Source of the DNA: Luzula sylvatica
Lineage: Eukaryota > Streptophyta > Magnoliopsida > Poales > Juncaceae
Reading direction: 5' to 3'
NCBI GenBank assembly: GCA_946800325.1
Contig: OX326958.1
Coordinates: 69,685,264-69,749,263, forward strand
DNA length: 64,000 nucleotides
Notes under the pieces: model-generated
The model's input: the letters and a program-made list of their open reading frames with translations, nothing else
Database searches by the model: none
Told to the model about the DNA's origin: nothing
Shown here: positions 5,221 through 64,000 of the stretch, piece by piece
How positions within the stretch are numbered: position 1 is the first letter of the stretch
How the letters are laid out: each line of letters starts with the position of its first letter
Made by a program: the position numbers and the translations under genes

Positions 5221-6775
5221 GAAAAACCGAAGATCTGGTGGGAAACGACGAGATCCCCTTCGCTGGGGCTTGACCGGTGCCGCCGCACTAGCTAAACCCT
5301 CTGGGTACGTTGTCGGCGAGTACTCGACAGTGACAGCAACCGATTCCTCCTCCTCTGCAACAGATCGCCATCACTTTTCTCCGCCTCCTCTACCGCCACA
5401 GATACCTCCTGAGTTTCGCCAATAATCGAACGTCTCTACCTTCTCCTGCTTCGTGATTTTTGCCGACCGAGATCACCAATTTTGGAGATCGAGATCTAGG
5501 GTTTCCATAAATCCGATTTTGCCTAATTTCAGATCTAACCGATTCATCTATTTCTAGCGATCGGAATATGGACCTCTTCTCGCCTTTTCCCCCTTCCCCC
5601 TATTCGGCGAAAGCTTGCTTCCTTGCTAATCACGACCTCATAGCATCTTTGCAAACCGATCTAGATCTCTCGGTTACATTGACAACAATTAGTAGTGTTT
5701 CTTCGATTCCAATTGCACAAATTCAAGAACAATTTGCACTACGGTATGGAGGTACCATGGGTGAATATCAATTTTCGAAGACCTCTGAAAAGACCCTTCT
5801 CCTCTTACCCCCTCCTAGTGTACCTCGTACTATGATCATTGACGATAACCAATTTTGGGAATTACACTATGCTATGGAGATAGAGAGTTGGCGAAACCCA
5901 ATCACAATTCGTCAATTCGACCGATTATGGAGAGTATCGGTTGAATTGGGGAATTTCCCGCTTCGATTTTGGCACCTTGAATACTTTCGGCAAGCGGTGT
6001 CATCTTTTGGCTCTCTCGAGAATGTAGACATGGCAAATCTAAATGGAGAAGACAAATCGAGGGTCAATTGTACGGTACGTGTACCGTCTATTGCGGCTAT
6101 CCCTCCTAGGATTCACATCGCCTTCGATTGGGAATGGTCGGAAATTAGAGTTGTGTTGAAAGAGATTAATGGGGTTATCGAGATTGGGGAGTTTGAGCCG
6201 CGAATGGATGGACATGAAGGTATCCGAGAAGACGATGCATATGACCACACGCCTTCACCTTCCCCTCCAACCTCTCCGGCGAGCGACAAGCAACAAGAAG
6301 ATGTCTCGAGGTGGCAATACAAAGGTGGTGGCCGAGACGACCGAGAAGATGGTGATCGAGAAATTGGTGACCGGCAAGAAGTTATCTGTGAATATGATGC
6401 CCGCGTGGATTATTACCTAGTGAATCTTTATAACCGATTCTACTCAAAACTCAATGAAGAAACTTTACCTCGACTCACAATTATTGCCTCCTTAGAGTCT
6501 TCACGAAACCGAGGTTCAAGCATCGTCTATCGATGCCATATTTATGAAGGAAATTGTGACGAAAAATATTTCGAGGAATTTTTTCTTGTATTCATGTTTA
6601 GGTAATAGGTTATAAAATTTTCTTGTTAGGTTTGCTTAGGCTTGAGTATCGTTTAAGTTATTTTGTTTTTTCGTTCTCTTATTTGCCGTTTTAATTTGTT
6701 ATTTTGATTCTACGTTATCGTCATGTAATGTGACTTTTGAATTAATATATGCTCAAGGGCATTTTTGCAAAAAAA
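5221..6775 (+). mobile_element. ORF1-only LINE-like retroelement
   Basis: A complete-looking insertion of about 1.55 kb. It has a GC-richer 5' leader (5221-5567), one uninterrupted ORF (5568-6605), a short 3' UTR and a 3' A-tail, bounded by exact 19-bp target duplications. It carries no endonuclease or reverse transcriptase, so it would depend on a full LINE for mobility. A second, 5'-truncated copy at 32177-32440 begins inside the ORF end and shares the whole 3' UTR and tail, which confirms the 3' boundary. Human HAL1 is a known analogue of an element keeping only ORF1. An alternative is an internal deletion derivative of an ordinary L1-type LINE. Confidence 0.8.
5568..6605 (+). CDS. LINE ORF1-like protein, 345 aa
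   Basis: The frame is intact from the first ATG after the leader to a TAG; 3' UTR and A-tail follow. The N-terminal half is globular. Residues about 130-200 (FPLRFWHLEYFRQAVSSFG, then a stretch with V..RVPSIAAIPPRI and an alternating hydrophobic strand) recall the DUF4283-type RNA-binding region of plant LINE ORF1 proteins. Residues about 225-265 form an acidic, Pro/Ser-rich linker, and the C-terminus is again globular. No CCHC zinc knuckle is visible. By analogy it would bind the element RNA. The family assignment is inference; the open frame and element borders are seen directly. Confidence 0.6.
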   Translation: MDLFSPFPPSPYSAKACFLANHDLIASLQTDLDLSVTLTTISSVSSIPIAQIQEQFALRYGGTMGEYQFSKTSEKTLLLLPPPSVPRTMIIDDNQFWELHYAMEIESWRNPITIRQFDRLWRVSVELGNFPLRFWHLEYFRQAVSSFGSLENVDMANLNGEDKSRVNCTVRVPSIAAIPPRIHIAFDWEWSEIRVVLKEINGVIEIGEFEPRMDGHEGIREDDAYDHTPSPSPPTSPASDKQQEDVSRWQYKGGGRDDREDGDREIGDRQEVICEYDARVDYYLVNLYNRFYSKLNEETLPRLTIIASLESSRNRGSSIVYRCHIYEGNCDEKYFEEFFLVFMFR

Positions 6776-14433: not shown

Positions 14434-14470
<37 letters not shown>

Positions 14471-14478
14471 TTTATTAA

Positions 14479-14552
<74 letters not shown>

Positions 14553-15195
14553 TTATTTTTATTATAATAATAATCATCATTATTATAATAATATTAATTA
14601 TTATTATTATTATTATTGTTATTATTATTATTATAATAATAACTATTATTTTAATTATTATTATAATAATTATAATAATAATAATAATTATTATTATTAT
14701 TATTATTATTAAAATAATATTATGTATTATTATAATAATATTAATTATAGTAATATTATAATAAGTATTATTATAATTATTATAATAATAGTAATTATTA
14801 TTATTATAATAATAATAATTCTTATTATTATAATAATAGTAATTATTATTCTTATTCTTATTTTTATATTATAATAATTATTATTATTTTTTTTAATAAT
14901 AATAATTATTGTTATAATAATAATATTATTATTATTATTATAGTATTAATTATTCTTATTATTAATATTATTATTATAATAATTATAATTATTTTTATTT
15001 TTATTATAATAATAATTAGGGGTAAAATGGTCCAACAAAAAAATTACAAGGTGGAATAGATCTATTCCATGTTTTATATGGAATAGATTTAACCCACTAA
15101 TCTCAATTTTATTCCATATTATTCCATCCTTGTTCGGCAGGAATAGAGTGGATTAACTCATTTATTCCTCTATTCCACTCTATTCCACCCTTGCC
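14231..15195. mobile_element. TIR-type element swollen by an ATT microsatellite
   Basis: The left end contains gttcggcaaaactaatgg and the right end ttccacccttgccgaac, which are inverted relatives, with attcca/tggaat motifs inside both arms. The arms match the family remnant at about 19800-19915, which also ends in gccgaacgggc. The interior is almost entirely ATT/AAT repeat. No target duplication is certain and no coding capacity remains. Confidence 0.55.
14335..15020. repeat. (ATT)n/(AAT)n microsatellite of about 690 bp
   Basis: Imperfect ATT and AAT trinucleotides switching orientation repeatedly. The polyisoleucine open frames on both strands are purely a consequence of this. Confidence 0.95.
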
Positions 15196-22823: not shown

Positions 22824-23804
22824 ATGAGTAATAAAATAGTATATTTGTGGGATATTATTCATCCGCAAAATACGTATCATATGCATAGATGTGGAGATGA
22901 ATGTGTTATTAGGAGATGGTTTGAAAATCATTTTTGGTGTGAGACGGGCAAAAGGATTCATCAATGTGGAACGAATTGCGATCAAAAGGTATTAGATGAT
23001 GAAGGCGATGCTTATTGCAAGATTAGTGGACGAGTTTTTACGTTATCTTGGGAGGAATGGTCGAAGAGCATGTGGTATAAGTTGGACCAAATGAAAGCGC
23101 GCAATAATAGGCAATTCGAAGAGCATGAGAAGGAAGAGGAATCGGATGACAATGGAGTCGATAAAGGAGAGGATAACGCATCGGATTCGGGCATGATTGG
23201 CACGGATCCGGTTGAGCGTGAATCAGATTCGGGGGTGATCGAAGCGGATTCGGGCGTGATCGAATCGGGTCCGGTTGAGAGTGAATCGGATTCGGGCATC
23301 ATCGAAGTGGATCCGGTTGAGTCTGAATCGGATTCGGGTGCGCGCAAATCAGATTCGAAAAATATTGAATCGGAGGACATAGTCGCAAAAGGCGAAATGA
23401 CTATTCTTTCAAAAATGCTCGAGTCGGGTACGGTGCGATTAAGAGATAAAAGGTATTCGGATCCGTATTTGAATTTGAAGAGAGATAATTGTCGAATATG
23501 CGTGTATGGAGATATGAGAGTTTTGTGCGCATTTCAAGAAGGGCGGTTATCCCCATTCGAAATACTACTCGAGGGGGGGCTCGATGATGAAGTGAACAGG
23601 CCGCCTCCGAAACCGAATATAAGGTACGGTGTGGAATCTTCAAAGGTGGTGATTCGTGTTGGTTTGAAAAGGCCTCCACCAAAACCGAATATACGGTACG
23701 ATGCGAAATCTTCAACGGTGGTGTTTTGTGTTATATTGAAAAGGCCACCGCCAAAACCTAATATAAATTTCGCATGTTTGATCCTTGAGGACAAGGATCT
23801 TTAA
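22824..23804 (+). CDS. Retrotransposon-borne Cys/His-rich acidic-repeat protein, 326 aa
   Basis: I do not recognise this protein. Residues 19-72 hold two H-x-C-G-x2-C motifs (H21/C23/C27 and H46/C48/C52), a WC at 38-39 and C65-x2-SG, plausible ligands for one or two zinc ions. Residues about 95-185 are very acidic with a repeated (V/S)ESDSG unit. A middle segment (about 190-255) looks globular. The C-terminus carries three 24-residue repeats starting RPPPKPNI at about 259, 283 and 307. Its stop overlaps the purine-rich tract before the 3' LTR. No Gag, RT or integrase motif is present. The frame is uninterrupted, which suggests recent activity or selection. Confidence 0.75.
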   Translation: MSNKIVYLWDIIHPQNTYHMHRCGDECVIRRWFENHFWCETGKRIHQCGTNCDQKVLDDEGDAYCKISGRVFTLSWEEWSKSMWYKLDQMKARNNRQFEEHEKEEESDDNGVDKGEDNASDSGMIGTDPVERESDSGVIEADSGVIESGPVESESDSGIIEVDPVESESDSGARKSDSKNIESEDIVAKGEMTILSKMLESGTVRLRDKRYSDPYLNLKRDNCRICVYGDMRVLCAFQEGRLSPFEILLEGGLDDEVNRPPPKPNIRYGVESSKVVIRVGLKRPPPKPNIRYDAKSSTVVFCVILKRPPPKPNINFACLILEDKDL

Positions 23805-24135: not shown

Positions 24136-24942
24136 GAGCTCTCCATCCTGTGCGACGTGCCGGTTTAGGTTTACGTGGCCGTTTCTGACGGATCCGGCAA
24201 TGCTGAACCTGAGATCTGGCCTGAACCGAAAAAAGCTTCTGAAATTCTCTCGCGCTTCAATGCTCTGTCCCAACCCGAACAAACCAAGAAGATGGTCGAC
24301 AAAGAGGGATTCGTTTCGCATCAAGTAGGCAAAATGCAAGTGCAGTTGGAGAAGATCGAGCGTGAGAATCGTGAACTGGAGATGAGTATTATGTTGCAGA
24401 ATTTGCTCGCAGGAAGATGCTCGATCGATGATCTTGGCAATTTCGAGACCGTAACGAGTCTTCTGAAAATGGCGGATACACGAATTGCAGAGTTAAGAAA
24501 GAGAGAAGAAAGCCATCTATTCTGTTCTACAGCACCACTCCTTTCAAGCACTGACGTGGTTTGCGGTACCAGTTCCGTGGAGAGCATCGTACCAGAACTA
24601 GGTTTTGTAAGCGAGCTCGTACCAGAACAAGTTGAGATGTTTGATGTGTCTTCTTCTTCAAAGTGGGGCATTGTTGAGAAAGATATATTGGAATCTCTTG
24701 ATCCGTCTAACAATGCCGATGTGTCTTCTCTACCGAATTTGTGTGTGGTTGAAACGGAAGAGGCAACGAAATATTTAAATCTTCATGAGATAGGCGAATC
24801 GAGTAGCGGCACGGTGTCATTTTCTGATTGGTCCGATGAATTAGTGGATGGCAATATAATGACACTCTTCGACGAATTCATTGACTGTTTGAGCTATGAC
24901 GAGTTTGATTCAGATATGGTGAGTATTTTCGCTTCTTTTTAG
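24136..24942 (+). pseudogene. Type I MADS-box gene, 3' part
   Basis: Resumes in phase after the insertion: (E)LSILCDVPV, then an in-frame TAG (about 24163) where family members have a residue inside the MADS domain. It then runs open to a TAG at 24942. Downstream features are those of AGL80-like proteins: a PEIWP motif, QTKKMVDKEGFVSHQV, and a coiled-coil-like segment (QVQLEKIERENRELEM). The last 130 residues are acidic and Ser-rich. Two independent lesions (the insertion and the TAG) make loss of function near certain, while the rest of the frame has stayed open, so inactivation is fairly recent. Confidence 0.85.
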
Positions 24943-29455: not shown

Positions 29456-30382
29456 AGTTTCAATGGATAATTTCATTACCGGACATAAACAAGAACGTAA
29501 GTGTTTCTCCTCCATTTTTTGTATTTTATCAAAATTAATGGTTTTTCTTTTTTGGTACCACCAAAATCAAGCAAGTAAATGGGTTGGCTTGGTTTACTCT
29601 TCTCTTTGCTTTGATTTTTAGTTTCTTCTCCTCTTATTATTGATAAAGTCCTGATGGATTCTTGATCTGATTGTCTTTGATTTTTAATTTCTTCTTAACT
29701 TATCTTTTATCATAATTATTGATTCTGTTTTTTATTGACTGTATAGTTTAAAGTTTTATGATAAGCGAGATTGGCACGGGATTTCGATTACCACAGTACA
29801 AGGATTTCTTCTCTTTTATTGCTGTTTGATTTGGACGAGAATAAGACAAAAAACCAGAAGGATTTACCCCTGTACGAGTTCATTTTCAGTTTTATCCCTT
29901 CTAAAATAATAAATCATATTTATGATTCGATCTAATTTGTTTTCAAAATTGGTGCAGAGATGCGGTGAGTTCCATCGAGAACAGCCTCGAAGAGGTCATT
30001 TCGGGCCAGAGATGAGTTCCGTCGAGAACAGCCTCGAAGAGGTCATTTCGGGCCAGAAAGTGTCATCTCTATGCATTAGAAACTCATCGATCTTCTCCAA
30101 GCTCTTCTTGGCAATAATCACTGTAATTATTTTTGTTAGTTACAGTACTGAAAGTGTTCTTATTCAAGTTCATTTTAGCATTATTTTAAATGCTAATTAG
30201 TTCTGTATTTTCAGGTTTATGATGAATAGTGGCCAATTCTCTTAAACCAGTTCAAATCGAGACATTCGATTTAGCACTCACAAATTCTATTCCGAAATCG
30301 GAAGTCAAGGATCAGAGCAACAACAAAGTTTAATGAAGAATTGGCGATGCAGAGACTAAACAAAATGATACTCGATCAGGTC
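29456..30382 (+). pseudogene. Dispersed gene-fragment repeat, copy 2
   Basis: Matches 1496-2375 at very high identity, with the same donors and acceptors. The difference is a 47-bp tandem duplication inside the exon (second unit 30011-30057), which changes the reading of the SSVENSLEEVISGQK stretch. Identity stops at 30382, just past the cag|gt donor-like site, where the GC minisatellite takes over. The low divergence implies recent duplication or gene conversion. Confidence 0.7.
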
Positions 30383-30960
30383 CAAGTGGGGCCCGGTCCG
30401 GAGGGGGTCGGGCCCAAGTGGGGCCCGGTCCGGAGGGGGGCGTCGGGCCCAAGTGGGGCCCGGTCCCGAGGGGGGGGTCGGGCCCAAGTTGGGCCCCGTC
30501 CGGAGGGGGGGTCGGGCCCAAGTTGGGCCCGGTCCGGGGGGGGGGGGGTCGGGCCCAAGTGGGGCCCGGTCCCGAGGGGGGGTCGGGCCCAAGTGGGGCC
30601 CGGTCCCGAGGGGGGGGTCGGGCCCAACTGGGGCCCGGTCCGGAGGGGGGGTCGGGCCCAACTGGGGCCCGGTCCGGAGGGGGGGGGTCGGGCCCAAGTG
30701 GGGCCCGGTCCCGAGGGGGGGTCGGGCCCAAGTGGGGCCCGGTCCCGAGGGGGGGTCGGGCCCAAGTGGGGCCCGGTCCGGGGGGGTCGGGCCCGCGGGG
30801 GGGGCCGGCCCGGGGGGGTCGGGCCCAAGGGGGGCCCGGCCCGGGGGAGTCGGGCCCGCGGGGGGCCGGCCCGGGGGGAGTCGGGGGGCCCGCTGGGGGG
30901 GGGGGGGGCGGTCGGGCCCGCTTGGGGGGGGCCGCGCGCCAGGGTTGTTGACCCCATGCC
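30383..30960 (+). repeat. Very GC-rich minisatellite, about 15 units of 30-36 bp
   Basis: Units follow gtcgggcccaagtggggccc then ggtcccgagggggg, with variation in the G-run, in aag/aac/gcg and in ccgg/cccg; the 3' units are the most degenerate. It ends in gccagggttgttgacc. Long open frames in all six frames (Gly/Pro/Arg repeats) are by-products. The plus strand is G-rich with many runs of four or more G, so quadruplex formation is likely. The composition contrasts sharply with the AT-rich surroundings. Confidence 0.95.
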
Positions 30961-41952: not shown

Positions 41953-44160
41953 TTAATTCTTCGGCTTCACCGAGATTTTATAGCCGTCTATCCTTTGGCC
42001 ATGCATTTCCCCCGCGCACCGCTTCGACTCATCCTCATTTGGCATCGTCAGGAACCCGAACGTCGGCCTCGGGCCGCTGCATGTGTTACTCCTAATGACC
42101 TAAACCATTAAAAACATAAATAATTTTTTGAGAAAAACTATTTTGCACTAAGTTGCAGAATTCATAAAATCAAACGTACCGCTGCATGCGTTACTCCATA
42201 TGGATGGAATATGTGCATGAGAGTCGCTTCGGTCCACCAAGTCGGGATTCCTGCTACGTGCAGTTTTATAGGTTCGTAGTCGGGATGCGCAGCCGGGATC
42301 GGTACAGCATAGCGCGTAGCCGGGACCGGTACGCCACGGCTCGTAGTTGGAACCGGTACACCACGGCGCGTTGATGAGACCGGTACGGCACGGCGTGAGG
42401 CTCCGACCGGTACAGCAATAGGTGAGGATGGGACAGGTCCAGCACGGCGCGAGGGAGTGTTCGATACGGCAGTGGTAGTTGGGGCCTCCGGTAAGGCAGC
42501 AGGGGGTGGAGCATCCGGTGGTGATTGAGCATCTGGTATTTGAGCATCCGGTGAGGGTGTGGCGGTGAGAGCATCCGGTGAGGGTGTGGCGGTGAGAGCA
42601 TCCGGTGAGGGTGTGGTGGTGAGAGCATCCGGTGAGGGTGTGGTGGCGAGAGCATCAGGTACGGTAGGCGGAATGGGTGGCTTCGGTACTACAAGGGGCG
42701 GTGGTGGCTCTGGTATGACAGGGGGCGTAGGTGGGGACGGTACGGCAGGGGAGGTGGGAGGCTCAGGTACTGCAGTGGTCGCTGGTGGGTCCATCTGAAG
42801 AGAACGGGCTGAAATCTTGAGCTCTATTTCCTCCTCGTAAAAATCAACCTAAAAAACAATGAAATAAAACTAATTAGTATAATTAAAAATAATTGTGGAA
42901 CACGAGCAAGCCCACCGCCTCGGAGATGGGGTCCACCGCATCCAGTACCGCCACCTCCGGCTCCGAGAGTGGCACTGAGATGGGGCCCATCGGCAGGCCC
43001 ACCGACTCCGAGATCAGGCCCATCTGCTCCAGCTCCGAGAGTGGCACTGAGATGGGGCCCACGGGCAGGCCCACCGCCTCGGAGATGGGGTCCACCGGCA
43101 CCAGTACTTCCACCTCCGGCTCCGAGAGTGGTACTGAGATGGGGCCCATGGGCAGGCCCACCGACTCCGAGATCGGGCCCATATGCTCCAGCTCCGAGAG
43201 TGGCACTGAGATGGGGCCCATGGGCAGGCCCACCGACTCCGAGATCGGGCCCATATGCACCAGCTCCGAGAGTGGCACTGAGATGGGGCCCACGACAAGG
43301 CCCACCGACTCCGCGATTGGGTCCACCGGTTCAAGCTCCGAGACTGGTACTGAGATGAGGCCCATGGTCAGGCCCACCGCCTCGGAGATGGGGTCCGCCG
43401 GTTCCGCAACTGCCGGCTCGGGCACCACAACAGTGCCGTATCTCTCCGCCTTGCAAATCAGGGATAAAATTAAATTATTAGTATTTAATGAAAGGGGGAT
43501 TTATATTTTAAATATGATCCCATAAAAAATATGAAGGGCAAAAAGAAAAGGTACCATAGTGGTAAATCCCGAACATAACTTCTCACGCGTCAAGGGGAAA
43601 TAATCTTTTAAGAAGCTATCAATCTACATGAGGAACAAATACGAAATTAAAAGAACGCAAAAAGAATATTTGAATTTGAATCGGGTTTAAAATTAAAAAA
43701 AAATGATACCTTTCTTCCCAGAGGTGGCAAAACATGTATGCACACACTCATGGCAATGGAAACAAAGTTTTGTGCGTAGAAATCGATCTACATGAACAAA
43801 TAATAACTTCAAACCTCAAATCCAAAGAAACCATTGATGCATGCATTTCTATTTTAGATTAAACAATCACAATCGTACCATTCTGGCATACATTTCTATT
43901 TTAGATTAAGCAATCACAATCGTACCATTGATGCATGCATTTCTATTTTATATTAAAATGAATCACAATCGTACCAGTTTTGCCAGAGGTGGACCAATCA
44001 GGGAGCTGGCGCCAGTAATGGCCGTCGAGAGAGACCAGATGGCCACGAACACAGCAGTATTAAGAACTATTTGTGCAATGGTGATCGGGGCCAACGCGGT
44101 TTTCACCAAACGACTGCAGCCGCCAGCCATCCACCTAACGAAACGCAATGCGTGCGGCAT
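41953..44160 (-). CDS. Six-exon protein: hydrophobic N-terminus, Pro-rich repeats, C-terminal RRM
   Basis: Exons in transcript order: 44160-43975, 43787-43710, 43623-43555, 43449-42904, 42848-42180 and 42099-41953. All introns are GT-AG and phase 0, giving 564 aa. Exons 1-3 carry hydrophobic stretches (ITIAQIVLNTAVFVAIW; FVSIAMSVCIHVLPPL). Exon 4 is six repeats of 24-29 residues around GPISVPLSE. Exon 5 is Pro/Thr/Ala-rich with four DALTxTPSP units. It ends IKLHVAGIPTWWTEATLM..IFHPYG; exon 6 completes an RNA-recognition motif (PTFGFLTM as RNP1-like, GQRIDGYKISV). The RRM suggests RNA binding; the N-terminus could be a membrane or targeting region. I do not recognise the full architecture. Exons 2, 3 and 5 all begin (I/V)D(F/S)(Y/F), hinting at exon duplication. 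Confidence 0.7.
43831..43976 (-). repeat. Triplicated splice-donor segment in intron 1
   Basis: Three tandem units of 47-50 bp, each (on the minus strand) gtacgattgtgatt, a variable attt/ctta, ataaaatagaaatg and (c)atgcatcaatg. The first unit starts exactly at the exon 1 donor (43974); equivalent GTACGA sites lie at 43925 and 43878. Any could serve as a donor, though use of an inner one would add coding sequence. Confidence 0.85.
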
Positions 44161-61457: not shown

Positions 61458-62153
61458 GATTATCGCGTGATTTTACTTTCCTCCTTCGAAATATATGTGG
61501 TCCCTCATCTGCTTTTTTCAAACATGTTTTTCTTTAAGAATTAGGTGTGATCAACCAAACTTTGCCCATTCCATACATCCTAATGATGGATTTCGACCTA
61601 ATTAGGATTTAGGATTTAGGATTTAGGACTACATCCCAAACAAAAAGTGATTCTCTAAATAGTAAATACACAATTAATTATCCAATTCAACACACTTCTC
61701 AATTATCTCCACTTGGTAGAAGTCCGTCCCATACACTTGGTCTAATAATAATCGTCATTTGCCGATTTTTTCCAAATTAGACCCAATTTTCCTATCGAAT
61801 CATTTTCTCCAAAAAGAATACACTCAGTCTAATCTCTAATGATAATATTAGTTTCTATGACTTTCTCTTCTCATTAGTTTTGGATTTTTGCGGATCTATG
61901 AAATGTTTACAAGATCAAAAAAAGAAGGAAAATTAAGCCCGCACAGCCCTAATGATAAGAGATTTTATATCGTGCACCAAAAACTCATATAAATATGCTT
62001 GTTGACGTGGACAAAAACATCTAATTTGATTGATTTGGACTCCCTATGTATAATTAATATTAACGTATTATAATAAATTGAGGTGTCAATTAATCCTTAA
62101 TCGAGTGTTAATCAACACAAATTATTAATGTTTATAATGGACAATTCCAGTTT
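61458..62153. other. AT-rich spacer
   Basis: Holds a short aggattt repeat (61603-61628, four units) and otherwise nothing recognisable up to the LTR. Confidence 0.5.
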
Positions 62154-62436
62154 TGTTATCAAAGGAGATCTTCGCTGCTTGTAATTTTGTCTATTCTCCA
62201 GTATGGAAGAGAGACGTGTCAATGTCTCTATAGACAGTACCCAGAATGAGAATATGCTGTAGGCCATCGTGACAGTTAGCAGTAATACGTGGTTAGTTTT
62301 TAGTGAAGAAGAATAACTAGTAGGCCCTACAGTTTGTTATTACAAAGTGTATAAAACGATCTCCATTGTAAATGTGTCACTGTGGTAATGAAAAAGAAAA
62401 GTTTTCTTCTAATAGTGTTTTTCACTTAATCTATCA
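62154..62436 (+). repeat. 5' LTR of a copia-type element (283 bp)
   Basis: Begins TGTTATCAAAGG and ends CTATCA immediately before a primer-binding site. Contains a TATA box (gtgtataaaac, about 62349). The start is chosen as the TG that best fits; without the 3' LTR it cannot be checked inside the window. Confidence 0.65.
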
Positions 62437-62450
62437 TGGTATCATGAGCC
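62437..62450 (+). promoter_or_regulatory. Primer-binding site of the copia-type element
   Basis: tggtatcatgagcc, the initiator-Met tRNA complement with one extra T relative to the common tggtatcagagcc. It directly follows the LTR. Confidence 0.75.
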
Positions 62451-62515
62451 ACTGAGCCACCGCTCACCATTTTTTTTTTTTTTCGTTCTTTCTTTCTCCT
62501 CTCTAGTTTATCTTA

Positions 62516-64000
62516 ATGGTTAACTCGGGCACCTCAATTGACCCAACAACAAAGAAAGAGGTGAAAGACAAAGAAAGGATGGTATTTAATTACCGGACAC
62601 TAAACGATAATACTCATAAAGACCAGTATAGCCTACCCGGAATAAATACTATTCTCAAGAAGATCGGAAAAAGTAAAATCTACTCGAAATTCGATCTAAA
62701 GAGTGGGTTCCACCAAGTCGCCATGGACCCAGAGTCAATACCCTGGACAGCTTTCGTAGTTCCAGGAGGATTATACGAATGGTTAGTGATGTCTTTCGGC
62801 TTGAAAAATGCACCAGCGATATTCCAACGAAAAATGGACAATTGTTTTCGCGGAACTGAGGAGTTTATAGCAGTTTATATCGATGATATACTAGTATTCT
62901 CAGAAAGTGAACGAGAACATGCGGAACACCTGTCGAAAATGCTGGGAATATGTGAGAAGGAGGGTCTAATACTCTCCCCGACAAAGATGAAGATTGCGGT
63001 CCAAGAAATTGAGTTCCTTGGAGCTGTAATCGGTAACAGGCGTATCAAGCTTCAACCTCATGTCATAAAGAAGATTATTGAGTTTGATGAGGAGAAATTA
63101 AAAGAGAAAGCAGGGCTCCGAGCATGGTTGGGAATTCTCAACTATGCCAGATCGTATATTCCAAAGCTCGGAACCCTTTTGGGTCCTTTGTATACAAAAA
63201 CCAGCCCTCATGGAGATAAACGCCTAAAAAGTTCTGATCTCGAACTTATTAAAACCATTAAGAAGGAGGTTCAGCATCTTCCAAACTTGGAACTCCCACC
63301 CACGGGCGCATATATTATCCTAGAAACCGACGGATGTATGGAGGGATGGGGAGGAGTTTGTAAATGGAAACCGATGAAAAACGACCCACGAAGCGTTGAA
63401 CGGGTCTGTGCATATGCTTCGGGAAAATTCCCGGTTATTAAATCCACTATTGATGCAGAGATATATGCCTGTATGGAAACAATGAAGGCATTGAAAATCC
63501 ATTATCTTGACCAGAAGGAAATAACCCTCCGAACGGACTGCCAAGCGATTATTAGTTTCTATAACAAGACAGCCGTGAATAAACCTTCGAGAGTAAGATG
63601 GATAAATTTTGTGGATTTTGTTACAGGAACAGGAGTACAAATAAATTTCGAGCATATAGAAGGAAAAAACAATGTGCTTGCTGACTCTGCTCCCTCTCCT
63701 CTTACCACATCTACGCCTCTTTCATCTCCGGTTCTTTTCGCATCTGATAAAGTAACTACTACTTTCACACACCAAATTCCTTTCAAATTAGATGCAAATA
63801 ATTTCCTTCTGTGGAAATCACAAATCTCTCCCATTCTATCAGCATATGATTTGCTCGGATATGTTGATGGTTCTCTCACTCCTCCACCTCAACTCATTAT
63901 TCCTTCACGTGAGTCCACCACTCTTACCGTCAATCCTGAGTTTCAACAATGGCATCGCCAAGATCAATTTTTGCTTGGTTGGTTAATCTCATCCTTAACA
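62516..64000 (+). CDS. Chimeric ORF: pararetroviral RT-RNase H fused in frame to copia Gag (runs off the window)
   Basis: Open for 495 codons from ATG to the window edge. Residues 1-7 (MVNSGTS) look like a copia Gag start. Residues about 8-391 are a caulimovirid, badnavirus-like segment entering at RT motif 2. It has the catalytic Asp in FDLKSGFHQ (D60), WTAF, FGLKNAP and YIDD (121-124). The RNase H acidic residues D272, E315, D341 and D390 are present; the segment ends at VLADS. From residue 392 (APSPL) a Ser/Thr/Pro-rich linker leads into a Ty1/copia Gag N-terminus (NNFLLWKSQI, GYVDGS, QWHRQDQFLLGWL). The RT lacks its N-terminal fingers, and no protease, movement or coat region is present. 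No stop or frameshift is seen. Whether it is expressed is unknown. Confidence 0.85.
   Translation, partial: MVNSGTSIDPTTKKEVKDKERMVFNYRTLNDNTHKDQYSLPGINTILKKIGKSKIYSKFDLKSGFHQVAMDPESIPWTAFVVPGGLYEWLVMSFGLKNAPAIFQRKMDNCFRGTEEFIAVYIDDILVFSESEREHAEHLSKMLGICEKEGLILSPTKMKIAVQEIEFLGAVIGNRRIKLQPHVIKKIIEFDEEKLKEKAGLRAWLGILNYARSYIPKLGTLLGPLYTKTSPHGDKRLKSSDLELIKTIKKEVQHLPNLELPPTGAYIILETDGCMEGWGGVCKWKPMKNDPRSVERVCAYASGKFPVIKSTIDAEIYACMETMKALKIHYLDQKEITLRTDCQAIISFYNKTAVNKPSRVRWINFVDFVTGTGVQINFEHIEGKNNVLADSAPSPLTTSTPLSSPVLFASDKVTTTFTHQIPFKLDANNFLLWKSQISPILSAYDLLGYVDGSLTPPPQLIIPSRESTTLTVNPEFQQWHRQDQFLLGWLISSLT

Follow-up and report, generated by a model that had tools for sequence, protein, structure and literature searches.

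A badnavirus-like RT/RNase H segment fused in frame to the Gag of a young copia retrotransposon in Luzula sylvatica

A young copia retrotransposon in the 445-Mb genome of the great wood-rush, Luzula sylvatica, carries a pararetroviral reverse transcriptase (RT)/RNase H piece fused in frame to its Gag. The fusion had been proposed in a first-pass annotation of the same DNA, and it proves real, as attested by the open reading frame and the Pfam domains found in it. The window, i.e. the whole stretch of 64,000 nucleotides analysed (C3:69685264-69749263), contains the 5' part of the element at 62123–64000, with pol, the 3' LTR and the second copy of the target duplication lying beyond it. The best, although unproven, reading of the locus, to which we assign a probability of about 60%, is a one-off double template switch between a copia RNA and a pararetroviral RNA, followed by integration by the copia integrase; a functional reading of the fusion is improbable.

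Rightward extension of the sequence past the window yielded a complete copia element of 6,290 bp (62123–68412). As is characteristic of Ty1/copia elements, it has two LTRs (62123–62436, plus strand, and 68099–68412, each 314 bp long), differing by one mismatch in 314 in a self-BLAST of the 10-kb locus, and an exact 5-bp target site duplication, CAAAT, outside both of them (62118–62122, and 68413–68417 outside the window). The parts that the first-pass annotation had left to be found beyond position 64000 thus exist, at 66119–68417. It had also recognized an LTR and a primer site upstream of the frame, which stands, except that the LTR starts at 62123 rather than at 62154. A sequence resembling a primer-binding site (PBS), TGGTATCA, directly follows the 5' LTR and opens the PBS and copia leader region (62437–62513, plus strand), and a purine-rich tract precedes the 3' LTR. 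The LTRs end with CA and start with TA instead of TG; at the 5' end (62123–62130) CAAAT is followed directly by TATTAATG, and at the 3' LTR (68097–68106) TG stands before the same TATTAATG. The TA start may reflect either an unusual element terminus or the loss of two bases at the 5' end. At 1.3e-8 substitutions per site per year, the rate used for rice, the one difference in 314 sites dates the insertion to ~0.12 My ago, with an upper 95% bound of ~0.7 My. The LTR with the leader was found nowhere else in the genome, both candidates returned being the element's own LTRs, and the Gag start has no relative more than 71% identical over most of the query (one 119-base match reaches 78%); judged from the LTR and gag evidence, the element appears to be present in a single copy.

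A single frame of 1,200 codons starts with the ATG at 62516 and stays open to 66115, so the continuous frame annotated up to the window end (62516–64000, plus strand) holds and extends beyond it. It encodes the viral RT/RNase H followed by copia Gag, whose start occupies 63688–64000 (plus strand) and which continues as gag-protease-integrase to 66115. Pfam searches identified RVT_1 (1e-37), RT_RNaseH (5.7e-9) and, barely over the cut-off, copia gag (1.8e-5). The copia part is ordered as gag, a CCHC knuckle, a DSGA protease motif, a pre-integrase domain, an integrase core and an SH3-like domain, the integrase core being a Pfam match below the cut-off in which a simple D-D-E pattern gave no match. 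An in-frame stop (66116–66118) then separates gag-protease-integrase from a 661-codon frame with the copia RT (66119–68101; RVT_2, 6.4e-72). Gag, protease and integrase hence precede a copia-type RT, the domain order of Ty1/copia, with one stop between the two parts. In four relatives from Rhynchospora both parts belong to one protein, in alignments that fall short of the stop site, and the stop may be either a lesion or a read-through site.

The viral segment itself, with an N-terminally truncated RT and RNase H, was delimited at 62514–63687 (plus strand) from the edges of similarity to 29 viral loci, the Pfam matches and a match to the structure 8r0s, although its outermost bases may be common to copia as well. 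Among the best 120 of 722 homologues, named virus proteins are 63–68% identical to it (e.g. 68% for that of Dioscorea bacilliform virus), and by the identities to these listed named proteins the patch appears closest to badnaviruses within Caulimoviridae. It lies in the sense orientation expected of pararetroviral RNA. According to our own mapping, based on an alignment to 8r0s and on the residue numbering of CaMV RT given in the available part of PMC11363490, the segment corresponds approximately to residues 88–468. It therefore lacks ~87 N-terminal residues and is not a complete RT domain: the first palm piece (1–35) is absent, as is a large part of the first fingers piece (36–115). At the other end it stops just past the last catalytic Asp of RNase H, within the final helix, at ~468, whereas the RNase H domain extends to CaMV residue 474. 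Contrary to the earlier supposition, the capture was thus not domain-precise. The polymerase aspartates and all four acidic residues of RNase H are kept, in keeping with the catalytic residues originally noted: YIDD is present in the RT part, and we read the RNase H D-E-D-D as D272, E315, D341 and D390. A Pro-to-Ser change precedes the motif FGLKNAP; as an indication of a dead RT it is weak, since five of the 82 homologues that contain this motif have Ser as well (the other 38 of the 120 gave no motif match).

Relatives of the viral segment are common in the genome. A search returned 56 candidates, 40 of which were scored, so the 42 other matches thus obtained, with 80–98% identity, are a lower bound. 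All 29 loci fetched continue into the viral polyprotein past the patch on at least one side, and their 1.5-kb flanks contain no copia protein match. Among full-length copies the nearest reaches 97.9% identity to the patch, and one 345-base piece, not among the fetched loci, is 98% identical. Compared with the 0.3% difference between the LTRs this is too distant for a direct donor, which points to an unseen virus, or to a lost or unscored copy, as the putative source. One match with 89% query coverage (P0001) was considered as a second fusion and rejected, as it runs on into viral sequence. The tblastn match of another sequence (P0018) to the fusion locus extends to 63838, but we regard the part past 63687 as a chance extension, because the DNA similarity ends there. 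Two near-identical RT/RNase H copies (L006 and L007, C6:2147095-2149581) lie in opposite orientation 143 bp apart, and two others (L014 and L015, C3:45633152-45642361), ~8 kb apart, are separated by zero branch length over RT/RNase H, which suggests that they arose by duplication.

The fetched loci also define the two joins. In 27 of the 29, DNA similarity to the viral copies sets in at 62514 (at 62516 and 62743 in the others); it ends at 63687, again in 27 of the 29. Neither join is crossed by any of these loci, and the 3' join is crossed by none of the at least 42 other genomic matches, among the matches listed; further copies with the same joins, which the first-pass annotation had suggested looking for, are thus not among these matches. 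The residues MVNSGTS, initially taken for seven Gag-like residues, turned out to be viral, because the similarity starts at 62514, before the ATG, and because viral relatives read ..AMMVNSGT or ..AMIVNSGT at the same residues. Both joins had been described as preserving the frame, but only the 3' join (63687/63688) links two coding frames, the 5' join sitting at the start codon. The native Gag start was compared across 12 in-genome copia relatives, 67–78% identical in gag DNA. Their Gag begins with ATGG in ten cases and with MADP in three (the start is not MADP in the remaining nine, nor in the four Rhynchospora proteins), and the distance from PBS to ATG, 79 nt here, is 55–76 nt in the eight of the 12 in which a PBS was found. 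These Gag starts and PBS spacing make 62516 the likely native start, and the Ala-Asp-Ser with which the viral patch ends would consequently coincide with the likely first native Gag residues. In the simplest picture, a patch of ~1.16 kb would separate the start codon from the codons after it, sharing a few bases with copia at either end, and little or no Gag seems to have been lost. No patch-free copy of the copia element was found in the genome, so we infer the shared bases at the joins from relatives.

How could such a structure arise? A virus-like particle might have held a copia RNA together with a badnavirus-like transcript, of viral or endogenous origin; minus-strand synthesis would have left the copia RNA near the gag start, copied ~1.16 kb from the viral pol and switched back to the copia RNA at the gag start codon, and the chimeric cDNA would have been integrated as one unit by the copia integrase, with a 5-bp target duplication. 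We infer the order of the jumps, the RNA nature of the donor, the co-packaging and, from the Gag starts of the relatives, the short matches at the joins. The fusion would probably have been a passenger: wild-type proteins of a parent could have served the single transposition seen, without any need for a working fused Gag. As described in the available parts of two papers, two different RNAs can share one copia particle, and template jumps from one to the other can give chimeras that integrate with normal target duplications (PMC1950507, PMC13317346). Sabot and Schulman, in the available part of their text, take a target duplication together with alike LTRs as signs of a single template-switch integration (PMC1950507), and both the flanking duplication and highly similar outer LTRs occur here. 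The ends of the patch fit the copia Gag start as it appears in the relatives (ATGG in 10/12, MADP in 3/12), and the patch measures only 1.17 kb while all 29 viral loci extend beyond it. The young LTRs, the sense orientation, the apparent lack of target loss and the short patch all favour template switching, but none of them decides. Against it stand the lack of a donor as close as the 0.3% LTR difference would lead one to look for, the failure to find a patch-free copy, and the Gag starts other than MADP in nine of the 12 relatives and in the four Rhynchospora proteins.

A possible, though on balance doubtful, alternative is that the copia element was inserted first and that a double-strand break arising later at the start of its gag was repaired using DNA from a virus or an endogenous viral copy, by a microhomology-mediated route or as templated filler. 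All the features seen could also be compatible with such templated repair after integration. The in-frame fusion would then be luck, with a chance of ~1 in 3 for the frame and 1 in 2 for the orientation. Break repair is one of the two standing ideas for pararetrovirus integration, as presented in the available part of PMC10377300, and copia lineages make up ~14.6% of a published L. sylvatica assembly, as summed from a table in the accessible portion of PMC11538461; with at least 42 viral matches in the genome, some chance hits in copia DNA are to be expected. However, the element is young, leaving little time for a later hit, the loss of target sequence seems little or none, the viral stretch is far longer at the 29 fetched loci than in the patch, and the 64-kb window contains no further match to the viral segment. 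None of these points is decisive. The idea of a recent template-switch product, which the first-pass annotation had mentioned as one option, is the best supported by the target duplication, the near-identical LTRs and the sense patch, with post-integration repair remaining its rival.

That the fused RT/RNase H was adopted by the copia particle as a second polymerase or RNase H, and is kept by selection, appears very improbable, even though the 1,200 codons are open and the catalytic acidic residues are present. A tree was built from 28 sequences, L019 and L020 being excluded as short. In it the patch groups with close viral copies on a terminal branch of 0.017, its exact placement being weakly supported. 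Within the close group of 13, eight silent and four replacement changes are private to the patch; ~75% replacement would be expected without constraint, so that replacements are fewer than neutral (P about 0.003). Yet its private changes relative to all 27 other tree members (two silent, four replacement) show no bias, and the other 12 close viral copies pooled carry the same bias as the patch (60 silent to 18 replacement; Fisher P 0.48 against the patch), so the bias is ascribed to viral history, and most of the evolution of the patch seems to have taken place in a virus. We considered and rejected the open frame as a sign of selection after capture: all 29 fetched viral copies are free of in-register stops (frameshifts ignored; three are partial) and 18 of them are also free of indels, which makes the openness of the patch uninformative as to its use after capture. 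Further arguments against adoption are the polymerase without its ~87 N-terminal residues, the stop preceding the copia RT, and the LTR and leader confined to this one element. An established lineage would show itself by more than one copy with the fusion, or by selection acting on it after capture; the LTR with leader was found only here, and the 3' join in none of the other matches listed. The suggestion that the particle protein had gained a second polymerase is therefore poorly supported, given the RT that lacks the N-terminal palm and much of the fingers, the uniqueness of the LTR and leader and an open frame explained by viral history. A working second polymerase is unlikely, whereas some residual RNase H activity may persist. 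There is only a slender chance that the chimera represents a functional copia lineage that transposed recently, in which Gag delivers a pararetroviral RNase H to the particle and of which parental or sibling copies would be present on the alternative haplotype or in other plants of the genus Luzula. Misjoining of viral sequence into the copia element during assembly is the least credible explanation, given one and the same copia element on either side of two joins that are 1.2 kb from each other, an exact target duplication outside both LTRs, a 10-kb locus without any N, and a QV of 59.9 reported for the assembly lpLuzSylv1 in the available part of PMC11380069.

By its sequence the patch belongs among endogenous caulimovirids (EPRVs), as do the at least 42 other genomic matches, but it differs from them in comprising only RT/RNase H, in residing inside a copia element and in having joins absent from the 29 fetched copies. 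Recombination of a retrovirus-like element with an infecting RNA virus has reportedly occurred between IAP and LCMV, with viral sequence inside retroelement cDNA as here, albeit in other hosts and with an RNA virus; we know of no in-frame Gag fusion in that system. The Angela-like template-switch complexes, with Veju-L and BARE2 named as similar in the available part of PMC1950507, are chimeras with a 5-bp duplication and alike outer LTRs, as here, and are attributed to a template jump from one packaged RNA to another, as proposed here; their partner is a retrotransposon or an unknown sequence, whereas here it is a pararetroviral coding piece in the Gag frame, and there is no third LTR. Recombination between a badnavirus and an LTR retrotransposon has likewise been proposed for banana, where an endogenous banana streak virus adjoins a Ty3/gypsy element (work of Gayral et al., summarized in the available part of PMC10377300), the chimera integrating by the element's route, with a two-step history noted as possible. 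In banana the gypsy element flanks the virus, whereas here a viral patch of 1.17 kb sits within a complete copia element with a target duplication of its own. The same review, in its available part, regards the chromosomal entry of pararetroviruses as speculative, the two ideas being break repair and retrotransposon-mediated chimeras (PMC10377300). A viral patch in a copia element that is young and flanked by a target duplication of its own offers a concrete and datable case for the retrotransposon route. The fusion also illustrates that part of a viral pol can come to lie in frame in the Gag of another retroelement, as raw material for domain-swapped retroelements. No report of a pararetroviral RT/RNase H in frame with copia Gag was found in a literature search covering titles and the beginnings of abstracts, and few subscription journals.

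As for the rest of the window, open frames of 210–345 codons at 5568–6605, 22824–23804 and 24175–24942 (plus strand) and 42162–42794 (minus strand) have no Pfam match at 0.01. A 574-bp imperfect TAT repeat occupies 14445–15018, with no viral-segment match adjoining it. A GC-rich tandem array with units of 34 and 70 bases (30382–30844) has several open frames on both strands and is probably not a gene, and a tandem repeat with a 159-base unit (42901–43401) likewise contains long open frames on both strands.
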